Assembly: GCA_016929495.1 (NCBI GenBank)
Contig: JAFGIS010000355.1
Location: forward strand, 1 to 64,000
From: Polyangiaceae bacterium
Lineage (GTDB): Bacteria > Myxococcota_A > Polyangia > Polyangiales > Polyangiaceae
Direction of reading: 5' to 3'
DNA length: 64,000 nt
A model generated the notes under the pieces. That model searched no databases and was not told where the DNA came from. It saw nothing but the letters and a program-made list of their open reading frames with translations. Position numbers and translations under genes: made by a program. Each line of letters opens with the position of its first letter. Position 1 is the stretch's first letter. Shown here one piece after another: positions 31,093-41,214 of the stretch.

Positions 31093-31707
31093 TTATCCCT
31101 TCGTGATCTTCTGCCCTCGCATGACGATGTCGCGGCTGGCCTTGACGTTGATGTTGCCGGATCCCACGACGGTGATGTCCTTGCCGCGGATCTCGATGGA
31201 GCCGTCCTTCTTGAGAACGATGGAGGCCGCACCCGTGCGCAACGTCAGCGAATTCCCTGCCTCGATGACCGTATCCTTGCCCGTGCGCAGCACCAACGCG
31301 TCCCCCGCCTCGATGCTCACACCCTTGTGGACCGTGAGCGAGTGTGCACCCTCGATCCGCGTCTCACTGTCACCCGCTATCGACACGCGCTGTCTGTTGC
31401 CGATGGTGAGGGTCTGACCGCCGCCGATCGTCGTCTCCTGGTTGCCTCCAATGGAGGTCTGCTCAGCGCCGCCGATCGTCGTCGCGCGCGACGCGCCCAC
31501 CGCAGCGGTCTGGTTCTGACCGACGGACACCGAATCATTGCGATCGATCGTTGCGGACCGGTTGCCCGTCACGCGGACGACCTGATCCCCCGCCACGGTC
31601 GCCAAGGGCGTACCCGGGCCGCCCGGCTGCGGCGACCCGTCCCACGCCAAACACAATACGGTCAGTACCATGAGCCCGATGAGTCTACGGTCTGGTGTCG
31701 TTCTCAC
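31093..31707 (-). CDS. exported stand-alone VgrG-needle-like beta-helix protein
   Basis: 204 residues from GTG 31707 (GGAG 8 bases upstream). N-terminal hydrophobic segment (RLIGLMVLTVLCLAW) resembles a signal peptide. The rest is a run of short TIGGxxxTxIG-type repeats (TTIGGGQTLTIGN, TVHKGVSIEAGDALVL, SIVLKKDGSIEIRGKDITV), ending like the C-terminal needle of VgrG/phage gp5, a trimeric triple-stranded beta-helix. The N-terminal VgrG gp27/gp5 head domains are absent. It is not beside T6SS genes. Role unknown. Confidence 0.8.
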   Translation of the reverse strand: MRTTPDRRLIGLMVLTVLCLAWDGSPQPGGPGTPLATVAGDQVVRVTGNRSATIDRNDSVSVGQNQTAAVGASRATTIGGAEQTSIGGNQETTIGGGQTLTIGNRQRVSIAGDSETRIEGAHSLTVHKGVSIEAGDALVLRTGKDTVIEAGNSLTLRTGAASIVLKKDGSIEIRGKDITVVGSGNINVKASRDIVMRGQKITKG

Positions 31708-31790
31708 GATGACAGCTCCTGTTGCCTGGACGAACACGCAAGCGTAGCACGCGGGGCGATGCCGGCAGCGCGTGTCGATTGAGACAGCGC

Positions 31791-31986
31791 ACTCGACGAT
31801 GCGCACGCCGGCGCTCAAGAGCTTGGAACAGTAGGAGCGCGAGGCGAGTGTCACGAGCAGGCTGTCGGACTTGGCGGGCAGGAGCGGCCACACGTCCGCG
31901 CCGCGCAGGGCCCGTGATCGCCGCCAGGATGGCCTGGCTCGGGACGAAACACGGATTGGTGATCCAGACGCGCTCGCAGGCCAGGG
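31791..31986 (-). pseudogene. decayed fragment of cardiolipin synthase gene
   Basis: Reads closely like bases 40015-40214 of the intact cardiolipin synthase gene, same orientation. The minus-strand translation contains LPAKSDSLLVTLASRSY and, in another frame, ACERVWITNPCFVPSQAI, both near-identical to the intact protein. A 5-base deletion (GGCCGCGACCGTG in the intact gene, GGCCCGTG here) shifts the frame. Only about 65 codons of the C-terminal half remain, without either HKD motif complete. Confidence 0.9.
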
Positions 31987-32287
31987 CGCCCTCTCGATCG
32001 TCGACCGCTGAGCCGGACGGGACAGCACGATTCTGGATTCTGTTCAGTGCGACAAGGCAACCGAGGCACGTGTCGCGCCGCCCGTCCAGTCGAAGGGTTG
32101 CATTTGCAGAGCACGGTCTTCGACGAGATCGCCGCAGCTTGCGACTGCGCGACTTCCGGACGCCGCGCCAACGGCAGGGACGTCTGGAAAAGTGATGTAC
32201 CTGCCTGCCAGCCCGGATGGCCGCGGACGAAGACGATGAAAATGGGTATGGCTTTGGGGCCACGCCTGCTGTAGCATCACGCTCGCA

Positions 32288-33346
32288 ATGAGGTGCAAGA
32301 GGTCCGCGGCGGGCGCGGCAGGTATCTTTGTGCTCCTTCTTGGCGCATCGGGTCAGGCCCAGAATGCCGACAAGAGCGCAGCGGTCACGCTCTACGATCA
32401 AGCCCAGCAGCTCATGCAGCAGGGCCGCTATGAAGAAGCGTGCCCCAAGTATGCCGAAAGCAATCGCCTGGATCCGCAGCTCGGGGTTCTGCTGCACCTG
32501 GCTGACTGCTACGAAAAGGAGGGCAGGTTCGCCAGCGCCTGGGCGACGTTTCGCGACGCCGCCGATCTGGCGGATCGTCGAGCAGATGCCCGCAGTCTGG
32601 CAGCCAAGGACCGTGCCAGTGCGCTCGAAGGCCGGCTTTCTCGCTTGACCATTTCCGTGCCCCCCGAGTCCGCGGTTTCTGGGCTCGAAGTGGAGCGGGA
32701 TGGCACGACGATCGGTTCGGCTCTCTGGGGCACCGCTGTGCCAGTGGACCCTGGATCGCACACGGTGCGAGCTACCGCGCCTGGAAAGGTACCGTGGGAG
32801 TCGACGGTGGAGGTGACGGAGGTCGGAGCTGCAGCCGCCGTCACGGTGCCTGCGTTGGCCGACGCTCGTTCTGTCACGACTGGGACCCAGCAGGCAGTCG
32901 GGCACAACGCGACCTGGGAGTCGGGCGGCGACACGACCGCCGCGGGGCGGGGGTCGGGCCCGCAGCACCCGGGTGAGGAACGTCTCGTTTCGGGACCCAC
33001 CCAGCGCATCCTGGGCTATGTGGCAGGCGGACTGGGTGTGATTGGGGTGGGCGTGGGGATCGCGTATCTGGTCGAGCGCTCGGACGCACTCGATGACCGC
33101 GACGCAATCTGCCCGGCGTCGGTCGATTGCGCGCCCGGCGACCAGAGGAGAATCGACGAGTTGACGGATCGGGCACGGGACGCTTCGACGTTGGGCGCGG
33201 TCGGCTTGGTGGTTGGTGGTGCCCTGCTGGCTGGCGGAGCGGCGCTTGTCCTGACCGCGCCGGAGGACGGCGCCCGGCAAGGACTGATGGTGGCTCCGCT
33301 CGTCGGCAGGAGCGACGCAGGATTGCTGGTGAGGCAGGTCTGGTAG
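32288..33346 (+). CDS. TPR/PEGA-like envelope protein
   Basis: 352 residues. Signal peptide about 8-25 (AAGIFVLLLGASGQAQ). TPR-like helices about 30-110 (YDQAQQLMQQGRYEEACPKY, DPQLGVLLHLADCYEKEG), then a PEGA-like beta domain about 115-185 (VERDGTTIGSALWGTAVPVD). Two hydrophobic segments in the C-terminal half (about 238-258, 300-320). This architecture is common in Polyangia; the role is probably envelope assembly or scaffolding. Could begin the run of same-strand genes to 36922 (68 bases to the next). Confidence 0.78.
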   Translation: MRCKRSAAGAAGIFVLLLGASGQAQNADKSAAVTLYDQAQQLMQQGRYEEACPKYAESNRLDPQLGVLLHLADCYEKEGRFASAWATFRDAADLADRRADARSLAAKDRASALEGRLSRLTISVPPESAVSGLEVERDGTTIGSALWGTAVPVDPGSHTVRATAPGKVPWESTVEVTEVGAAAAVTVPALADARSVTTGTQQAVGHNATWESGGDTTAAGRGSGPQHPGEERLVSGPTQRILGYVAGGLGVIGVGVGIAYLVERSDALDDRDAICPASVDCAPGDQRRIDELTDRARDASTLGAVGLVVGGALLAGGAALVLTAPEDGARQGLMVAPLVGRSDAGLLVRQVW

Positions 33347-33414
33347 GCACAGACGCCAAGAGCCCGGACACGAGTCCGAGCTCGCTGGTGGGGCAACGGG
33401 TCGAGGGACACAGG

Positions 33415-34236
33415 ATGCGGGAACTCAGAATGAGACACAGAGCTATTCGTGGTCTGGTGCTGGGTGGCGCCGCGCTTGCGGGGATTGCCACCGCTTGCGG
33501 GGTCAGTGAACGCAGCGTGCGCGAGGCTGAGGGTGGCCACGCGGGCGTGGCCGCTGCCGCGGGTAGCCGATCCACAGAATCCAACGCTGGGACGGCTGGC
33601 ACTCCGTCCGGATCCGACACCGGGGGCAAACGTGGCAGCGCAGGCGGGTCGAGTGAGACCGGCGGCACAGCAGGCACCCCCTCCGAATCCGACACCGGGG
33701 GCAAACGCAGTGGCACGGGCGGGTCGAAGGCGACAGCTGGCGGCGCAGCAGGCACCCCCTCCGAATCCCATACCGGTGGCAAACGCAGCGGTACGGGCGG
33801 TTCGAAAGCAACCGGCGGCGGCACAAACCGCGCGGAAGGGGGCGAGGGAGGCGGAGCTCTGGTCGTTCCCACGGGCGGCGCGGGCGGCGCACCGTCGGGT
33901 GGCACGTCCGGCGAAGCAGGCAGCACCTCCGAGCCGACGGCGGGAGCACCCAACCCGGGAGCGTGCACCGACGGGGCCCGGCGTTGCGCCGGAGACACCC
34001 CAGAGAAGTGCGTGGATGGGCAGTGGGTCAAGCAGAAGCAGTGCAGCGGCACCACACCCGTGTGCAGCAACGGGATCTGCGGCGTGGCTCGCCTACGTGG
34101 CGGGCTCGTCACAGTCGGAGGCGCCATCAGCACAGGCACGATTCGCCTGGTCGACCACGGGTTCGAGTACCTGGCGCGATCCTGCGGCACGGTGAAAGAA
34201 GAGACGGTCTGCGTAGCGGGGGCAATTCGCCCATAG
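33415..34236 (+). CDS. lipoprotein with repeat-rich linker and Cys-rich C-terminus
   Basis: 273 residues. Lipobox GIATACGVS after a short signal peptide. The linker (about 40-175) contains three imperfect 25-26-residue repeats built on GTPSESDTGGKRSGTGGSKA. The C-terminal domain has ARRCAGDTPEKCVDGQW and CSGTTPVCSNGICG, a two-disulfide module frequent in myxobacterial surface proteins. GAGGGA precedes ATG 33415; ATG 33430 is an alternative. Only 14 bases before the first of three tandem paralogues, so cotranscription is likely. Confidence 0.75.
   Translation: MRELRMRHRAIRGLVLGGAALAGIATACGVSERSVREAEGGHAGVAAAAGSRSTESNAGTAGTPSGSDTGGKRGSAGGSSETGGTAGTPSESDTGGKRSGTGGSKATAGGAAGTPSESHTGGKRSGTGGSKATGGGTNRAEGGEGGGALVVPTGGAGGAPSGGTSGEAGSTSEPTAGAPNPGACTDGARRCAGDTPEKCVDGQWVKQKQCSGTTPVCSNGICGVARLRGGLVTVGGAISTGTIRLVDHGFEYLARSCGTVKEETVCVAGAIRP
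33595..33822 (+). repeat. imperfect 75-78-bp tandem repeats in lipoprotein linker
   Basis: Three consecutive units each encode a GTPSxSxTGGKR...GG peptide of 25-26 residues. The second and third units are closely similar at the DNA level, suggesting duplication by slippage or recombination. Confidence 0.8.
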
Positions 34237-34250
34237 GTCTTGGAGGTCCC

Positions 34251-35156
34251 ATGATGAACAGAAGACGCATTCTGGTCGGGCTGCTGGCAGCAGGGCTCAT
34301 CAGTGGCGGTTTCATTGCTGGTCGCGTGCTCGCGGCCGGGATCCCTGCCACAGGCGCGCTCACCTACTCGGGAGTGCTCGAAGGCGAGGACGGCAAACCG
34401 CTGACTGGAAAGCACACCGTCGAGGTCAAGTTCTGGGCCACCGAGAGCGGCGGAGACGAGGCGCTTTGCACCAACAACGGGGAGGAAGTCACCCTCGTCA
34501 ACGGGCGGTTCTCCGTGGCTCTGCCCGATGGCTGCACGGACGAAGTCAAGGCCAACCCGGATCTGTGGGTAGAGGTCAGGGTGGACGGTGCGTCGCTGGG
34601 GCGCGCCAAGGCGGGAGCGGTGCCGTTTGCGGTCGAGGCAGGCAACGGCGCTCCCATTGCCAGCATCGTCGCCAGCCTGCTCGACGAAACAGAATTCGCT
34701 GCCGTGCAGGGCCCCGGCTGGGTGCTCGCCGACGGGCGCGACGTGACGGGCTCGGCGTACCACGAGCTCGGCAAGGGCACGAACGTGCCGGACCTACGCG
34801 GCATGTTTCTGCGCGGGAAGAACAACGGACGGGAGGACGAGCTGGCCAATCCCGAGGGCGAGTTCGCGCTGGGCGAGGTCCAGGAAGCGCAGCTGGCACA
34901 GCACGGGCATTCGGTGACGGACCCTGGGCACGACCATCAGGCGCCCACTACGGACGGGAACACCGGCAGTGTCGAGGTGGCCAGTCCGACCTCGGGCGGC
35001 TTCGACTACATCTCCGCCGGGAGTCCCATGACTTCGTCCAACGATACCGGCATCACCATCGGCAACGCCTCCGCCACGAGCGCCGACCCCGCTGCCGTCG
35101 GAGACGAAACGCGCCCGCAGAACGTCACCGTCAACTACTTTATCCGTGTAAACTGA
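34251..35156 (+). CDS. exported constant-region protein with phage tail-collar-like C-terminus
   Basis: 301 residues. Signal-anchor (LVGLLAAGLISGGFIAGRVL), then a ~115-residue constant region shared with the next two genes (GALTYSGVLEG, LTGKHTVEVKFWA, VALPDGCTDEVKANPDLW). From about residue 145 the C-terminus is unlike the paralogues: VPDLRGMFLRGKN, LAQHGHSVTDPGHDHQ and ETRPQNVTVNYFIRV are the signatures of phage tail-collar domains. GGAGG lies upstream of the ATG. I infer a cell-surface fibre-like or binding protein; actual partner unknown. First of three tandem paralogues. Confidence 0.8.
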   Translation: MMNRRRILVGLLAAGLISGGFIAGRVLAAGIPATGALTYSGVLEGEDGKPLTGKHTVEVKFWATESGGDEALCTNNGEEVTLVNGRFSVALPDGCTDEVKANPDLWVEVRVDGASLGRAKAGAVPFAVEAGNGAPIASIVASLLDETEFAAVQGPGWVLADGRDVTGSAYHELGKGTNVPDLRGMFLRGKNNGREDELANPEGEFALGEVQEAQLAQHGHSVTDPGHDHQAPTTDGNTGSVEVASPTSGGFDYISAGSPMTSSNDTGITIGNASATSADPAAVGDETRPQNVTVNYFIRVN

Positions 35157-35192
35157 CCCATCACCGCACGCCGCTGCTGTTCGGAGGCTCCC

Positions 35193-35999
35193 ATGTTGAC
35201 AAGAACACGCATGCTTCTCTGCCTCGCAACCACAGGCCTCATCGCCGGCGCATTCCTGGCCGGTCGTGTGCTCGCCGCCGGGATCCCTGCCGCAGGCGCG
35301 CTCACCTACTCCGGAGTGCTCGAAGGGGAAAACGGAGAGCCCCTGACCGGAAAGCACACAGTGGAGGTGAGGTTCTGGGCCGCCGAGTCCGGCGGTGACA
35401 ACGCCCTTTGCACCAACTACGGGCAAGAGGTCGCGCTTGAGAGCGGTCGCTTCTCGGTCGCGCTGCCGGATGGCTGCACGGACGCCGTCAAGGCCCACCC
35501 GGATCTGTGGGTCGAGGTCGTGGTGGATGGCGCGTCGCTGGGACGCGCCAAAGCGGGAGCGGTGCCGTTCGCGGTGGAGGCGGGGCATGCGACGAGCGCG
35601 GATAGCGCTGCCAGCGCAAGTGAGGCGGTCACGGCCACAAACGCGACGCATGCCACCAGCGCGGACAGCGCGACGACAGCGACCAACGCCGCCCAGCTCG
35701 CAGGCGATGGTCCCGAGTCCTTCCAGCGGCCACTCGACGGCTCCTGCGATTCTGGAATTGCAGCTGTCGCGGCGGACGGCACGACAACGTGCACCAAGTT
35801 CGTCGTGTTTCAGAAGCCCGGCAACAATGGAACAGCCTCGTGCGACACCTTCTGCGCAGGCTCCGAATGGGGCGCCACCGGGACTTGTGTGGGTGCGCAG
35901 AAGGCCGATACACTTGAGTACGTCACCTGCCACGATACGAACGTTCCGGAAGGCAACCTCAATGGACTGTACTGCTGGTGCAGTCGTCCGGTCATATGA
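35193..35999 (+). CDS. second constant-region paralogue with Cys-rich C-terminus
   Basis: 268 residues. Same signal-anchor and constant region as its neighbours (GALTYSGVLEGENGEPLTG, VALPDGCTDAVKAHPDLW, DGASLGRAKAGAVPFAVEAG). A short Ala/Thr/Ser repeat (about 132-170, HATSADSATTATNAA) leads to a distinct ~95-residue C-terminus with about eight Cys (SCDTFCAGSEWG, GTCVGAQ, VTCHD, YCWCSRPV), probably disulfide-rich and extracellular. Starts 36 bases after the first paralogue. No family recognised for the C-terminal domain. Confidence 0.78.
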   Translation: MLTRTRMLLCLATTGLIAGAFLAGRVLAAGIPAAGALTYSGVLEGENGEPLTGKHTVEVRFWAAESGGDNALCTNYGQEVALESGRFSVALPDGCTDAVKAHPDLWVEVVVDGASLGRAKAGAVPFAVEAGHATSADSAASASEAVTATNATHATSADSATTATNAAQLAGDGPESFQRPLDGSCDSGIAAVAADGTTTCTKFVVFQKPGNNGTASCDTFCAGSEWGATGTCVGAQKADTLEYVTCHDTNVPEGNLNGLYCWCSRPVI

Positions 36000-36121
36000 G
36001 GTCGCTTCTCGCTCAGCCTCCGCTGCCCAGAGCGCCTCTCCTCCAGTCATGAAGCACTCGCTGTCTACAGCACTCCAGACCCCTGCCATTCGGCTCCGCA
36101 GCTGACGCCCGGAGATTCCCC

Positions 36122-36922
36122 ATGACGACCAGAGAACGCATCCTGATCGGTCTTGCAGCAACGGCCCTCATCGCCGGTGCATTCCTGGCTGGCCGCACGC
36201 TCGCGGCTGGTATTCCTTCCTCGGGCGCGCTCACCTACTCGGGAGTGCTCGAAGGCGAGAACGGAGGGCCCCTGACCGGAAAGCACACGGTAGAGGTCAA
36301 ATTCTGGGCCGCCGAGACCGGCGGTGACATGGCGCTCTGTAGCAACAACGGCCAGCAGGTCACGCTCGTCAATGGGCGCTTTGCCGTGGCTTTGCCGGAC
36401 GGTTGCACGGACGCCGTCAAGGCCCACCCGGATCTGTGGGTCGAGGTCGTGGTGGATGGCGCGTCGCTCGGGCGCGCCAAGGCCGGGGCCGTGCCGTTTG
36501 CGGTGGAGGCGGGGCATGCGACGACTGCGGACAGCGCCACGACTGCAGACAGCGCGGAGACGGCCACAAGCGCCACGACTGCAGACAGCGCGGAGACGGC
36601 CACAAGTGCCGAAACAGCCACGACCGCGGAGACGGCAACCAGTGCGCAGACCGCTCTCTCGGCCGAGAAGTGTACCAGCGCCCAGAACGCGGCGACCGCG
36701 ACCAGCGCCAATGTGGCCGATAGGGTCACGCTTCACTACGCAGACCTCGTTGCCGAGGACGAGCCCGGCGGGCATGCTCAATGGTGCATCGAGAACAGCG
36801 GCGACGGTGTCTCGTGCACAGTCGCGGCGAACCGAAAATGCGCAGCGCTGGGGTACTCAGGGGGATGGTTCGTCGGAGAGTCGGCGGATGGGACGCATCG
36901 AAGCATCATGTGCCTGCAATAG
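36122..36922 (+). CDS. third constant-region paralogue with Ala/Thr repeat stalk
   Basis: 266 residues. Signal-anchor and constant region as in the previous two genes, with part near-identical at the DNA level. A long stalk of ATTADSAETATSA-type repeats (about 135-180) follows, the periodicity expected of a trimeric or coiled fibre-like shaft, then a ~70-residue tip (LHYADLVAEDEPGGHAQWC, KCAALGYSGGWFVGES) with several Cys. Tip family not recognised. The set of three suggests modular exchange of tips on a common base. Confidence 0.78.
   Translation: MTTRERILIGLAATALIAGAFLAGRTLAAGIPSSGALTYSGVLEGENGGPLTGKHTVEVKFWAAETGGDMALCSNNGQQVTLVNGRFAVALPDGCTDAVKAHPDLWVEVVVDGASLGRAKAGAVPFAVEAGHATTADSATTADSAETATSATTADSAETATSAETATTAETATSAQTALSAEKCTSAQNAATATSANVADRVTLHYADLVAEDEPGGHAQWCIENSGDGVSCTVAANRKCAALGYSGGWFVGESADGTHRSIMCLQ
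36536..36607 (+). repeat. tandem 36-bp repeat in stalk of third paralogue
   Basis: Two adjacent 36-base units (36536 and 36572) are identical except for the final base, and diverged units flank them. They encode the ATTADSAETATS stalk, so the stalk length can change by unit gain or loss. Confidence 0.85.
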
Positions 36923-37202
36923 GGAATCCCTTCGCCCGAGCACGCCTCGTCGACGCGCCGGCTAGGCGTCTGACCTTTTCGCTGCAGTCGGCCGAGACCG
37001 CCGAGCATGCCGCGGAGCAGGCAACCCCTCGAGATTGCTCGGTTCACTGCGCGCTTCCCGGATTGGAGTCGCGACAGGAGTCTGCTGGTCCAGTCGGCCC
37101 GCGAATCGATCCAATCGCGACCGCAGCGCACCGTTGGGCCCCATACTGCGTTGCAGCCCCCTGATCCTCGGAGCTAGAGTTGTCCGCGGAAGGCATCGGG
37201 GA

Positions 37203-38657
37203 ATGACCGTACCTGTTGAGCCTGGAACCGTTTTGGCGGACAAGCTTCGGATCGAGGCGGTCATCGCGAAGGGCGGCATGGGCGTCCTGGTCGCCGCGCA
37301 TCATCTGAAGCTCGACCAGCGCGTGGCGGTGAAGTTTCTGCTTCCCGAGGCGCTGGCCAACCCCGAGGCCGTCGACCGCTTCGAGCGCGAAGCCCGGGCA
37401 GCTGCGAAGATCCAGAACGAGCACACCGTCCGTGTCATCGATGTCGGCACCCTGGACTGGGGCGCGCCGTACATGGTCATGGAGTACTTGCGCGGCTGCG
37501 ACCTCAGCGCCCTGCTCAGCGCGCGGGGCCCGATGCCCGTAGAAGATGCGGTCGACTACGTACTGCAGGCCTCCGAAGCCATCTCCGAGGCGCACACGCT
37601 CGGCATCGTTCACCGCGATCTCAAACCGTCGAATCTCTTCCTCATCGAGCGCCCGGACGGCACCCCCTGCATCAAGGTCCTCGATTTCGGCATATCCAAG
37701 GTGACGGGCGGCTCCGACCTTCTGGAACAAGCCAAGATGACGAGCACGGGTGCGCTGCTCGGATCACCGCTGTACATGTCTCCGGAGCAGCTGCGCTGCT
37801 CGCGGGACGTGGACATGCGAACGGATGTCTGGGCCCTGGGTACCATCTTGTTCGAGCTGCTCGCGGGACGGCCGCCTTTCGTGGCCGAGACCATGCCCGA
37901 GCTCATCACGGCCCTGCAATCGGGCGAGCTGCCGTCGCTCAGGATGATTCGGCCCGATCTGCCGGACGGGCTCGAGTACGCGGTAGAAGCGTGCCTCGAG
38001 CGCGAGCTCCATCGTCGCATTCCGTCCGTTGCCGAACTCGCCGCTCGGCTCGCGCCCTATGCGCCCAAGCGGTCGCGTGTATCGATCGACCGGATCCTTC
38101 GGGTCTCTCAGGCCAGCGGCCTCGCCATGAGCGTGCTGCCGCCCCCCTCCTCTGATCCAACCTCCAGGAACGGCGAACAGACAGCAGGCGAGCTCGTACG
38201 GACCAATCGGGTCCAGTCACGTTCAGGGCGACGCACGCTGATCGGCATGGCGGCTGTGGGCATAGCAGGGCTTGTCCTGGCGACCGTCTACTTGGCCAAG
38301 CGGACGCCCGCCGAGGCTACTCGGGTCGAACGTGCAGCTTCGGATCCGCAGGTGTCCGGAGCCCAGATCCCTGCGGCCGAAACCGGATCTGTTTCTGGCG
38401 CGCCGATCGACAACGGACCCGTGGTATCGCCTGTGCCATCGGTCGCGAACACCGCGACGGCTGAGGAGGACAGCCGTGAACAGCCCGACGCAGGAAAGGA
38501 ATCGGCGGACAAGCGTCGTGCCGCCGCACCGCGAGCGCCCTCGGCGCGTCCGCCCACAGGTGCCCGGGTCGGCGTCGTGCCCCCCGGCTCCGCTCGTAGT
38601 CCTGCTGCGCCTGCGCCAACGGCCAACAAGAAAGATCCCCTGGGGGGCCGGCTGTAG
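37203..38657 (+). CDS. membrane-anchored Hanks-type Ser/Thr protein kinase
   Basis: 484 residues. Kinase domain about 12-280 with Gly-rich loop AKGGMGVLV, ATP lysine Lys44 (VAVKFLL), catalytic loop VHRDLKPSN (Asp139), DFG Asp161 (DFGISK) and GSPLYMSPEQ in the activation segment; all residues needed for activity are present. One transmembrane helix about 345-365 (TLIGMAAVGIAGLVLATVYL), then a Pro/Ala-rich extracytoplasmic tail without a recognised sensor domain. ATG 37203 precedes the kinase fold directly. 280 bases after the third paralogue, probably its own promoter. Confidence 0.95.
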   Translation: MTVPVEPGTVLADKLRIEAVIAKGGMGVLVAAHHLKLDQRVAVKFLLPEALANPEAVDRFEREARAAAKIQNEHTVRVIDVGTLDWGAPYMVMEYLRGCDLSALLSARGPMPVEDAVDYVLQASEAISEAHTLGIVHRDLKPSNLFLIERPDGTPCIKVLDFGISKVTGGSDLLEQAKMTSTGALLGSPLYMSPEQLRCSRDVDMRTDVWALGTILFELLAGRPPFVAETMPELITALQSGELPSLRMIRPDLPDGLEYAVEACLERELHRRIPSVAELAARLAPYAPKRSRVSIDRILRVSQASGLAMSVLPPPSSDPTSRNGEQTAGELVRTNRVQSRSGRRTLIGMAAVGIAGLVLATVYLAKRTPAEATRVERAASDPQVSGAQIPAAETGSVSGAPIDNGPVVSPVPSVANTATAEEDSREQPDAGKESADKRRAAAPRAPSARPPTGARVGVVPPGSARSPAAPAPTANKKDPLGGRL

Positions 38658-38865
38658 GTGACCTGCCCGTCAGAAGCCTGACGAGGCAGCATCGGGCCGC
38701 CCTCTGAGCCCGTGGGGGCGACGGCGCGACTGCGGCGCGAATCCGCCGTAGCGTCGGGGTCGGACCTCAACCGGGAAGGCTGGCCGCGGCCTCCAATACC
38801 TTCCCGCAACCAGATGCGCTCGCCCTGCGTCTGCTCGGACACCCGCTTGCGGACTGTCGGCGGTT

Positions 38866-38880
38866 GGGACATATTGTCCC
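38866..38880. promoter_or_regulatory. palindromic operator-like site upstream of vapB-like gene
   Basis: GGGACATATTGTCCC is a perfect 6-bp inverted repeat with a 3-base centre, ending two bases before the antitoxin ATG. TGTCCC recurs at 38884-38889. Antitoxins of this class repress their own operon by binding such palindromes. Confidence 0.65.
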
Positions 38881-38882
38881 TT

Positions 38883-39167
38883 ATGTCCCATTCCTCGAGT
38901 CGCAACGTATCGCTGGCAGAGACGAAGAGCCGACTCGCAGAATGCGTTCGCGCAGCCGAAAGGGGCGAAAATGTGGTCATCACGCGACATGGCAAGCCCG
39001 TCGCAGCGCTCGTTTCGACGCAGGACCTCGCGCTGATCTCTCGGCTCCGCGCGGCGAAGCAAGGAAAGGGGCTGGCGGCTCTGGCCGGTGGTTGGGCCGG
39101 ATCTGCGGAGCTGGTCGAGCATGCGCTGACGCGGCGTCGTACGTCCCGACGGCGGACCAGGGAGTGA
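38883..39167 (+). CDS. Phd/YefM-type antitoxin
   Basis: 94 residues. NVSLAETKSRLAECVRAAER and NVVITRHGKPVAALVSTQDL match the Phd/YefM DNA-binding fold that neutralises toxins and represses its own promoter. The C-terminus (LTRRRTSRRRTRE) is basic and probably flexible, the usual toxin-binding part. The PIN toxin gene starts 12 bases later. A palindrome lies immediately upstream. Confidence 0.9.
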   Translation: MSHSSSRNVSLAETKSRLAECVRAAERGENVVITRHGKPVAALVSTQDLALISRLRAAKQGKGLAALAGGWAGSAELVEHALTRRRTSRRRTRE

Positions 39168-39179
39168 GCGAATCAGGCC

Positions 39180-39611
39180 GTGCCCTACCTTTTCGATACC
39201 GATGCCATCTCCGAGGTCCTCAAGCCACGCCCGGCAGCAGGCTACGTCGAGTGGCTGCGGCACGTGCCACAGGAGGAACAGTTCACGAGTGCCATTTGTA
39301 TCGCGGAGTTGTTCGAAGGTGCCTTTGTCGCGCACCAGCGCGATCGGCACCTGCGGAACATCGAGGAACGCGTGCTCCCGCAGCTGATCGTTCTGCCATT
39401 CGACGTGGACACCGCGCGCGTCTTTGGCGAGCTGGCTGCCGTGTTGCGTCACTCGGGTCAGGTGCTCGCAGACCCTGATCTGCAGATTGCCGCCACCGCG
39501 GTTCGTCACGACCTCGGGCTCGTCACCGGCAACGTCCGGCATTTCTCCCGCGTTCCGGGACTCTGCCTGGAGCGGGCGCTGGCGGAAAGCCGCCCGGGCA
39601 AGGCGCCGTAG
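39180..39611 (+). CDS. VapC-type PIN-domain toxin ribonuclease
   Basis: 143 residues from GTG 39180. PIN acidic residues are visible: LFDTDAISE (first Asp), SAICIAELFEGA (Glu), and ADPDLQIAATAV (Asp pair), followed by GLVTGNVRHFSRV with typical end. VapC toxins cleave tRNA or rRNA in a metal-dependent way. Lies 12 bases downstream of the Phd-like antitoxin, so one operon. Antitoxin type Phd with PIN toxin is a known pairing. Confidence 0.92.
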   Translation: MPYLFDTDAISEVLKPRPAAGYVEWLRHVPQEEQFTSAICIAELFEGAFVAHQRDRHLRNIEERVLPQLIVLPFDVDTARVFGELAAVLRHSGQVLADPDLQIAATAVRHDLGLVTGNVRHFSRVPGLCLERALAESRPGKAP

Positions 39612-39744: not shown

Positions 39745-41214
39745 CTACAGCAACGGCGACAGCAGCCGCGCCACCGCTCTGGCCAGCCGCCGTACCAGCC
39801 GCACGCGACGCTCGCGTTGGGCCGTCACCTCGATAGCGGCTTCGAGGTCGAGCTCGAACCGGTTCGCCAGATCGCGGCACAATGCCGGACCGAAGACGAA
39901 CGCGTTGAGCTCGAAATTGAGGGTGAAGGAGCGCATATCCATGTTTGCGGAGCCAACGGTCGCGAGCCACTCGTCCACGACCATGGTCTTGGCGTGCACG
40001 AAACCGCGGGCGTACTCGAAGATGCGCACGCCGGCGCCCAAAAGCTCGGAGTAGTAGGAGCGCGAGGCGAGCGTCACGAGCAAGCTGTCGGACTTGGCGG
40101 GCAAGAGCAGCCGCACGTCGACGCCGCGCAGGGCCGCGACCGTGATCGCCGCCAGAATGGCCTGGCTCGGGATGAAATACGGATTGGTGATCCAGACGCG
40201 CTCGCAGGCCAGTGCGACCGCCTGCGCATAGTAGAGCTCCATCGCCGGCCAACGCTGGTCCGGTCCCGAGTCGATCACCTGGACCAGGCAATCCCCCGAC
40301 GAGGGACTCTCGGGGAAGTATCGTTCGTCCTCCAGCCGCTCGCCGGTGGTCATCAACCAGTCGTGCAAAAAGGCCTGCTGGAGGCTCAGCACGGCCGGAC
40401 CCTCGATGCGCACGTGCGTATCGCGCCAGGCCCCGATTTCCGGGTCCAGGCCGAGATACTCGCGTCCGACGTTGATGCCGCCCGTGAAGCCGGCCCGACC
40501 GTCCACCACGACGATCTTCCTGTGATTGCGGAAATCAGCGCGATCGCGCCTGCGGATCCTGGGAATGAGCTTGGTAAGCGGACCAAAGACGGCGGCGTGT
40601 CCACCCGCTGCGCGAAGCGGCTGCCAGAAGTCCGAGGGCAAGGCATAGCTACCGATGGCATCGCAGAGCACCCTCACCTCTATACCGGACGCGGCGCGCC
40701 GGGCCAGCGCGTCGCGCAACGCGGCGCCGACGGCATCGGGTTGGATGATGTAGAACTGAACGTGGATATGGTCCTGGGCCTGGTCGATGGCTTCCAGGAT
40801 CTCCGGGTAGGTCACGGCGGCGTCGTTGAGCACGCGCGTGGCGTTGCCCGAGCTTGCCGGCGTGCTCGCCAGAGCGTTGCCCAACGCGACCTGCGCCAGG
40901 GTGCGCGCCTCTGCCGCACCGCCGCCACGCCCCTGCAACCGATCCCGCACATTGTGCTGGGAGAGCACGTGCTCGAGCCGCGCCACCGCCCATGCAGAGC
41001 GTTTGACCGTGCGGCGCATGCGCGTGCGGCCCAGGAGCAAGTAGCCGAGCACGCCCAGGACCGGCGCGAACACGATGAACAGCACCCAGGCCAGCGTGGC
41101 CGTGGGGTTTCGGCGACGCGCGAGCAGTACCCAGCCGATGATCGCGACGTGCAGACCCAGACCAGCAAGCTCGAGCACGAAGGTTAGGACCACGGGGTCG
41201 ATATCGGGCGACAT
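39745..41214 (-). CDS. cls: cardiolipin synthase (phospholipase D family)
   Basis: 489 residues, typical. Two N-terminal transmembrane segments (about 7-30 and 38-62), then two PLD domains with HKD motifs: FRNHRKIVVVDGRAGFTGG and VHAKTMVVDEWLATVGSANM. It condenses two phosphatidylglycerols into cardiolipin at the inner membrane. The catalytic His/Lys/Asp are all present. The intact copy; a decayed ~200-base copy of its C-terminal half lies at 31791-31986. Confidence 0.95.
   Translation of the reverse strand: MSPDIDPVVLTFVLELAGLGLHVAIIGWVLLARRRNPTATLAWVLFIVFAPVLGVLGYLLLGRTRMRRTVKRSAWAVARLEHVLSQHNVRDRLQGRGGGAAEARTLAQVALGNALASTPASSGNATRVLNDAAVTYPEILEAIDQAQDHIHVQFYIIQPDAVGAALRDALARRAASGIEVRVLCDAIGSYALPSDFWQPLRAAGGHAAVFGPLTKLIPRIRRRDRADFRNHRKIVVVDGRAGFTGGINVGREYLGLDPEIGAWRDTHVRIEGPAVLSLQQAFLHDWLMTTGERLEDERYFPESPSSGDCLVQVIDSGPDQRWPAMELYYAQAVALACERVWITNPYFIPSQAILAAITVAALRGVDVRLLLPAKSDSLLVTLASRSYYSELLGAGVRIFEYARGFVHAKTMVVDEWLATVGSANMDMRSFTLNFELNAFVFGPALCRDLANRFELDLEAAIEVTAQRERRVRLVRRLARAVARLLSPLL

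Follow-up and report, generated by a model that had tools for sequence, protein, structure and literature searches.

The closest described relatives of the genes reported here are the fibres of the mosaic adhesive trimer (MAT) superfamily of Bdellovibrio bacteriovorus, described in 2024 (PMC10769870). According to that publication, all 21 MATs carry a conserved beta-rich domain of ~130 amino acids (aa) right after the signal peptide, their tips include TNF-like, C-type lectin and S74 domains, and they are proposed to be the prey-recognition proteins of Bdellovibrio. Its authors remark that nothing in the PDB is structurally homologous to the N-domain and that the surface element holding it is unknown, and the words operon and lipoprotein are absent from the main text. 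Here we describe a locus in a stretch of 64,000 nucleotides (nt), hereafter the window, from a Polyangiaceae bacterium (GCA_016929495.1, contig JAFGIS010000355.1, positions 1-64,000, forward strand). Between 32288 and 36922, all on the + strand, it holds a gene for a secreted TPR protein, one for a small lipoprotein and three tandem genes for fibre-like proteins that share an N-terminal base and end in different tips. The first-pass annotation had been unaware of any published system built like this; this no longer holds, as the MAT superfamily has the same design (PMC10769870), and the base is a distant relative of its N-domain.

Three tandem genes with a common base and unrelated tips

The fibre-like genes, identified as open reading frames and their translations, lie at 34251-35156 (protein 1, 301 aa), 35193-35999 (protein 2, 268 aa) and 36122-36922 (protein 3, 266 aa). 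Their residues 1-131 align without gaps, and the base itself (~103 residues, 29-131) is coded by 34335-34643, 35277-35585 and 36206-36514, where the base profile A2 matches with E-values of 3e-41, 1.8e-42 and 2.9e-42. Compared over residues 29-134, the three copies are 84-88% identical in protein sequence. Beyond residue ~135 the identity between gene 1 and genes 2 and 3 collapses (nucleotide identity 0.27-0.40), and the similarity between genes 2 and 3 stops after an Ala-rich stalk. The tips showed no detectable mutual similarity and fell into three separate clusters in an all-against-all comparison, in agreement with the constant base and three different C-termini first proposed. The N-terminus had been taken for a signal anchor; almost all homologues have a signal-peptidase-I site (A/V-x-A) immediately ahead of the base, hence it is a cleavable Sec signal peptide.

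At the DNA level the shared part is seen as a 300 nt direct repeat starting at 34248, 35190 and 36119, with copies 78-79% identical. The DNA similarity remarked on in the first-pass annotation is thus real, but it does not reflect a very recent duplication. Nonsynonymous divergence (dN) between the three bases is ~0.07-0.09 and synonymous divergence (dS) ~0.57-0.64, giving dN/dS of ~0.11-0.16. The base is under strong purifying selection, and a dS of ~0.6 together with a dN of only ~0.08 indicates old paralogues, not a fresh duplication. Recent or ongoing tip exchange via near-identical DNA was considered, and is not supported at this dS. Between genes 2 and 3, dS is 0.39 in codons 91-131 versus 0.81 upstream, which could stem from gene conversion in a segment too short for a claim. 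Nothing above chance was found in the search for promoters and terminators at the locus.

Tip 1 (34644-35153) resembles the receptor-binding region of the T4 short tail fibre gp12 (phrog_523, E 1.2e-15; PDB 1ocy, E 2.8e-6), and tblastn finds it in 229 phage records with a top identity of 33%. The Pfam scores of protein 1 stay below the cut-offs both for S_tail_recep_bd (PF14928, 20.5 bits versus 23.8) and for Collar (PF07484, 16.7 versus 24). H-x-H is a metal-binding motif in the trimer core of the T4 gp12 receptor-binding domain, and protein 1 has two such motifs, HGH at residue 218 and HDH at residue 227, their register with gp12 not being proven. Single-chain AlphaFold2 prediction, used for all models here, gave a low-confidence model of this tip. 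In protein 2 an Ala-rich AxxA stalk with linker (35586-35798, repeat family D2) is followed by a Cys-rich module (tip 2, 35799-35996), which has no Pfam match in the window copy and whose moderate-confidence model found no useful match in the PDB. Tip 2 is related to a module of a secreted protein in one relative (L108, G164:C264), which consists of six copies with the pattern GNNGTASC..YC....WG..GTCVGG...C...C.C. Protein 3 has an Ala-rich stalk (36515-36718) coded by 18/36 nt DNA repeats, with a 97% match over 36533-36610, and a short Cys-containing tip (tip 3, 36719-36919). With no relative at E 1e-3 among the 194 genomes described below, tip 3 is rare.

The likeness of tip 1 to gp12 (PDB 1ocy, 1pdi) and phage tail-collar proteins, including its phrog_523 match, raises the question whether the three genes encode tail fibres of a contractile injection system, a tailocin or a prophage, the more so as a T4 gp5/VgrG-type trimerisation fragment is found nearby on the other strand (31093-32028). 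However, all three proteins carry Sec signal peptides, and their base is not phage-like: a search of 50,697 phage records, allowing E up to 1, gave nothing similar. Among 20 other open reading frames of the window that were scanned, the gp5-type fragment was the sole phage-like one, with no tail module or other accompanying tail genes, and a lipoprotein such as the one linked to the base would be foreign to a phage tail. We therefore reject a prophage or injection-system origin, which we regard as very improbable.

For comparison we used 194 related genomes, as draft assemblies, and in each of them a part of the first-look candidates was scored. With a single sequence as query, 34 of the 194 yielded relatives of the base; a single-sequence scan of genome contigs gave 0 matches, and the alignment-based scan of contigs did give matches. 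Profile A2 splits the homologues in two: those of the strong group match at E<1e-22, come from 18 genomes and have the conserved cysteines, and the others form a weaker group. The alignment scan yielded 22 named loci with a strong-group base, nearly all labelled Myxococcota, and such bases also occur in other classes of the phylum.

The 42 proteins with a strong-group base carry 21 tip clusters, about 20 C-terminal families, so the base does not always come with the same C-terminus; a C-terminus that never varied would have spoken against exchangeable tips. Collar tips sit on the base in two relatives (G112 and G156a; 76 and 72 bits against a cut-off of 24, E 2e-21 and 5e-20), and others carry C1q (E 9e-8) or FGE-sulfatase (E 9e-13) domains. 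In a tree of the bases the window trio forms a supported clade (99/97) with three tips, G080a and G080b form another (100/99) with two, and the collar tips require at least 5 changes. Several tips within supported clades, along with these changes, mean that tips were replaced repeatedly. The proposal of exchangeable tips on a common base thus stands as regards history, but the analysis gave no hint of a dedicated, active or recent mechanism for exchanging tips. The layout is also reminiscent of polymorphic toxins and other modular tip systems, where a constant N-terminal part is combined with exchanged C-terminal modules; unlike these, the window cassette has no toxin domain, immunity gene or recombination cassette that we could find.

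Relation of the base to the MAT N-domain

The AlphaFold2 model of the base is a beta-sandwich with one helix (pLDDT about 90-98 for mature residues 10-90), and the domain has two conserved cysteines. Foldseek gave no PDB match at E<=0.001, and Pfam has no family with a meaningful score for it. The best structural match was VIA (Z 6.7), which may reflect merely a common beta-sandwich arrangement. That the base has no close PDB match agrees with what the MAT authors remark on their N-domain (PMC10769870).

A weak direct match to the Bdello_MAT_N family (NCBIfam NF053851) was obtained for protein 1, at 14.4 bits (E 0.025), with a best E-value of 0.0042 in a further search. When the base was aligned by hhalign with the Myxococcota domains recognised by MAT_N, the probability was 98.3 and the E-value 1.2e-14, and 19 of the 40 MAT_N places in the related genomes were also detected by the window base profile. 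Judged by these profile comparisons, the base is homologous to the MAT N-domain at the superfamily level. It forms a Cys-containing, Myxococcota-type sister branch outside the curated Bdello_MAT_N subfamily.

Likewise, the architecture is similar in that the signal peptide is followed at once by a conserved beta-rich N-domain, a beta-sandwich in the model from the window, and in that diverse C-terminal tips, including TNF/C1q-like, lectin-like and phage-like ones, are joined to it. It differs in that the window base has its two conserved cysteines and scores below the MAT_N cut-off, and in that the window proteins are coded by compact tandem genes with a linked lipoprotein.

A second fibre gene in the same assembly (L048, G000:C93:7394-7967) is of the MAT type and exceeds the MAT_N cut-off together with its neighbours in frame. 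It also has an upstream Gly-rich lipoprotein with a tail, and may be a contamination of the assembly, which is a draft of 9.56 Mb in 675 contigs with a completeness of 91% and a contamination of 7%.

The upstream lipoprotein and its conserved tail

Directly before the fibre-like genes, 33415-34236 encodes a small lipoprotein of 273 aa, with a signal peptide, a plausible lipobox (ATAC), a Gly-rich linker coded by 78 nt repeats (33598-33819), a Cys-containing domain and a conserved C-terminal tail. The tail comprises about 48 aa (34090-34233; alignment A3 and genome-wide matches) and reads ...GFE..R.C....CV.G..xP before the stop. The genes upstream of the base homologues likewise code for small lipoprotein-like proteins, with a low-complexity, variable body and a conserved last ~48 residues ending in ...CVxGG(L/I/F)xP. 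A crude scan, which overlooks some cases evident by eye, detected lipobox-like N-termini in most relatives (41 of 55).

A profile of this Cys-type tail matched 19 places in the 194 genomes at E<1e-4, and all 19 adjoin a base gene. In one case (G157) the adjoining gene is a truncated remnant of a base, and a complete base gene lies 1.2 kb upstream. At this place (L050, G157:C59:137103-137580) the lipoprotein has directly behind it an open frame whose start falls within the base (RKLGAVPYAVEAE...), as though the base had lost its N-terminal portion. Counted by genome, none of the 16 with the tail lacks the base, and of the 18 that carry the base 16 also possess the tail (Fisher p 1.5e-21). Independent of the sequences that seeded the profile are G157, G159 and 4 genomes elsewhere in the phylum; in those other classes the Cys-type tail stands beside the base in 4 of 4 genomes. 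Further independent tails were read by eye at L076, L081, L084, L085 and other loci. The first-pass annotation had listed the lipoprotein and the TPR gene as neighbours only. Both genes were confirmed, as coding for a Gly-rich protein with a plausible lipobox and a TPR protein with a weak PEGA match, and of the two the lipoprotein proves to belong to the unit as a conserved component.

In Myxococcota, bases of the MAT type are likewise preceded by a lipoprotein, whose tail is of another kind and ends in ...YRLxGGLVGAT. A profile of the latter tail matched 75 places: at 61 a base comes immediately after, 3 more belong to a cluster that contains a base, and at 11 none was detected. One genus-level group (G055, G014, G076, G085, G092 and G096; L188-L193) has divergent MAT-type tails (E 1e-7 to 1e-6) with no detected base adjoining.

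Tandem cassettes also occur elsewhere: G305:C4 has three bases behind one lipoprotein, and at L035 (G126:C58) three bases are accompanied by two lipoproteins as well as two TPR genes.

A docking model and its alternatives

We suggest that the locus may be an operon for MAT-like surface display, in which the lipoprotein mounts the bases on the outer membrane and offers a shared mount on which tips can replace each other; we consider the chances of this about even. After export via the cleavable signal peptide, each of the three mature proteins would consist of a beta-sandwich base with cysteines, then a linker or an Ala-rich stalk, and at the end a recognition tip of its own. The lipoprotein, fixed in the outer membrane through a lipidated N-terminus, would reach outward via the low-complexity linker and present its tail, which would bind the base domain, so that one mount could carry several specificities. 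Since three bases would have to fit one lipoprotein, the base would stay constant and the tips could be replaced freely. Docking of this kind would explain the constant base with its free tips, the conserved extreme C-terminus of a variable lipoprotein, and the matched subfamilies of base and tail. The displayed proteins might be trimeric and fibre-shaped, in the manner of the surface-exposed, homotrimeric beta-prism fibres with a part in prey handling that define the MAT superfamily, and their tips might bind prey, other bacteria or polysaccharide and thereby serve adhesion.

Several observations weigh against this model or its link to MAT fibres. Protein 1 falls far short of the curated NF053851 cut-off of 60 bits, and proteins 2 and 3 have no match to the family. 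At 266-301 aa the window proteins are far shorter than MATs, which have about 630-1,150 and typically about 1,000 aa; this is the reason we call them a MAT-like variant, and not MAT in the strict sense. Two genomes, G192 and G170, have the base, and the tail was not found in them. It should be noted that the Cys-type tail profile was seeded with genes taken from upstream of bases, hence the linkage is in part a product of ascertainment. As about 11 of the 75 MAT-type tails stand apart from every detected base, this tail is not restricted to bases. Finally, hhalign detected no significant similarity between the Cys-type and MAT-type tails.

The stray MAT-type tails would also suit another view, namely that the genes encode ordinary secreted or surface adhesins that arose by tandem duplication and domain shuffling. 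In that case the lipoprotein would be a functional neighbour, perhaps a surface lipoprotein in its own right or an aid to secretion, and not a mount. Old paralogues under purifying selection fit such an origin, and mosaic tips are common in secreted proteins. It leaves unexplained, however, why each of two base subfamilies is paired, in many genera, with a conserved C-terminal tail of its own, and why a lipoprotein of otherwise low complexity should keep a conserved tail. We find this account possible but rather doubtful.

The first gene of the recurrent unit (32288-33346) codes for the secreted TPR protein of 352 aa, with Pfam TPR_2 at 27.0 bits, at the cut-off, and PEGA at 13.5 bits, below it. 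Homologues stand upstream of lipoprotein and base in the same order and on the same strand at 7 loci in 5 other genomes. The gene has 23 paralogues in the genome of the window, and its adjacency alone is thus weaker evidence. A Ser/Thr protein kinase gene follows the cassette (37035-38657). The kept gene order and the nearby kinase would suit a surface sensor, in which ligands bound by the tips give a signal that the TPR/PEGA protein and the kinase pass on. Against it speak the many TPR/PEGA matches in the same genome and the fibre-like proteins' lack of an evident transmembrane link, and we regard such a sensor as unlikely.

Further downstream, 38712-39611 (+) encodes a Phd/YefM antitoxin and PIN-domain toxin pair. 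On the other side of the cassette, the trimerisation domain in the gp5-type fragment (PF22178, E 5e-13) is joined to a duplicated piece of a phospholipase-D-like gene; 31787-31991 is 89-90% identical to 40010-40219, within the phospholipase-D-like gene at 39745-41214. The whole open reading frame looks like a remnant.

Returning to the docking model, we tentatively propose, at somewhat less than an even chance, that tail and base are a general docking pair for fibres with exchangeable tips on the outer membrane. The tail would then be what MAT-type N-domains dock to at the surface, and the pair would exist in two versions, a Cys-tail with a Cys-base and a YRL-GG-tail with a MAT-type base. The nearly constant linkage makes the lipoprotein tail a concrete candidate for the surface partner of MAT-type fibres, and the homologous system extends exchangeable-tip fibres to a wider group of bacteria, including Myxococcota, a phylum with many predators. 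The natural series of tips on one base could further be used for studying recognition specificity.

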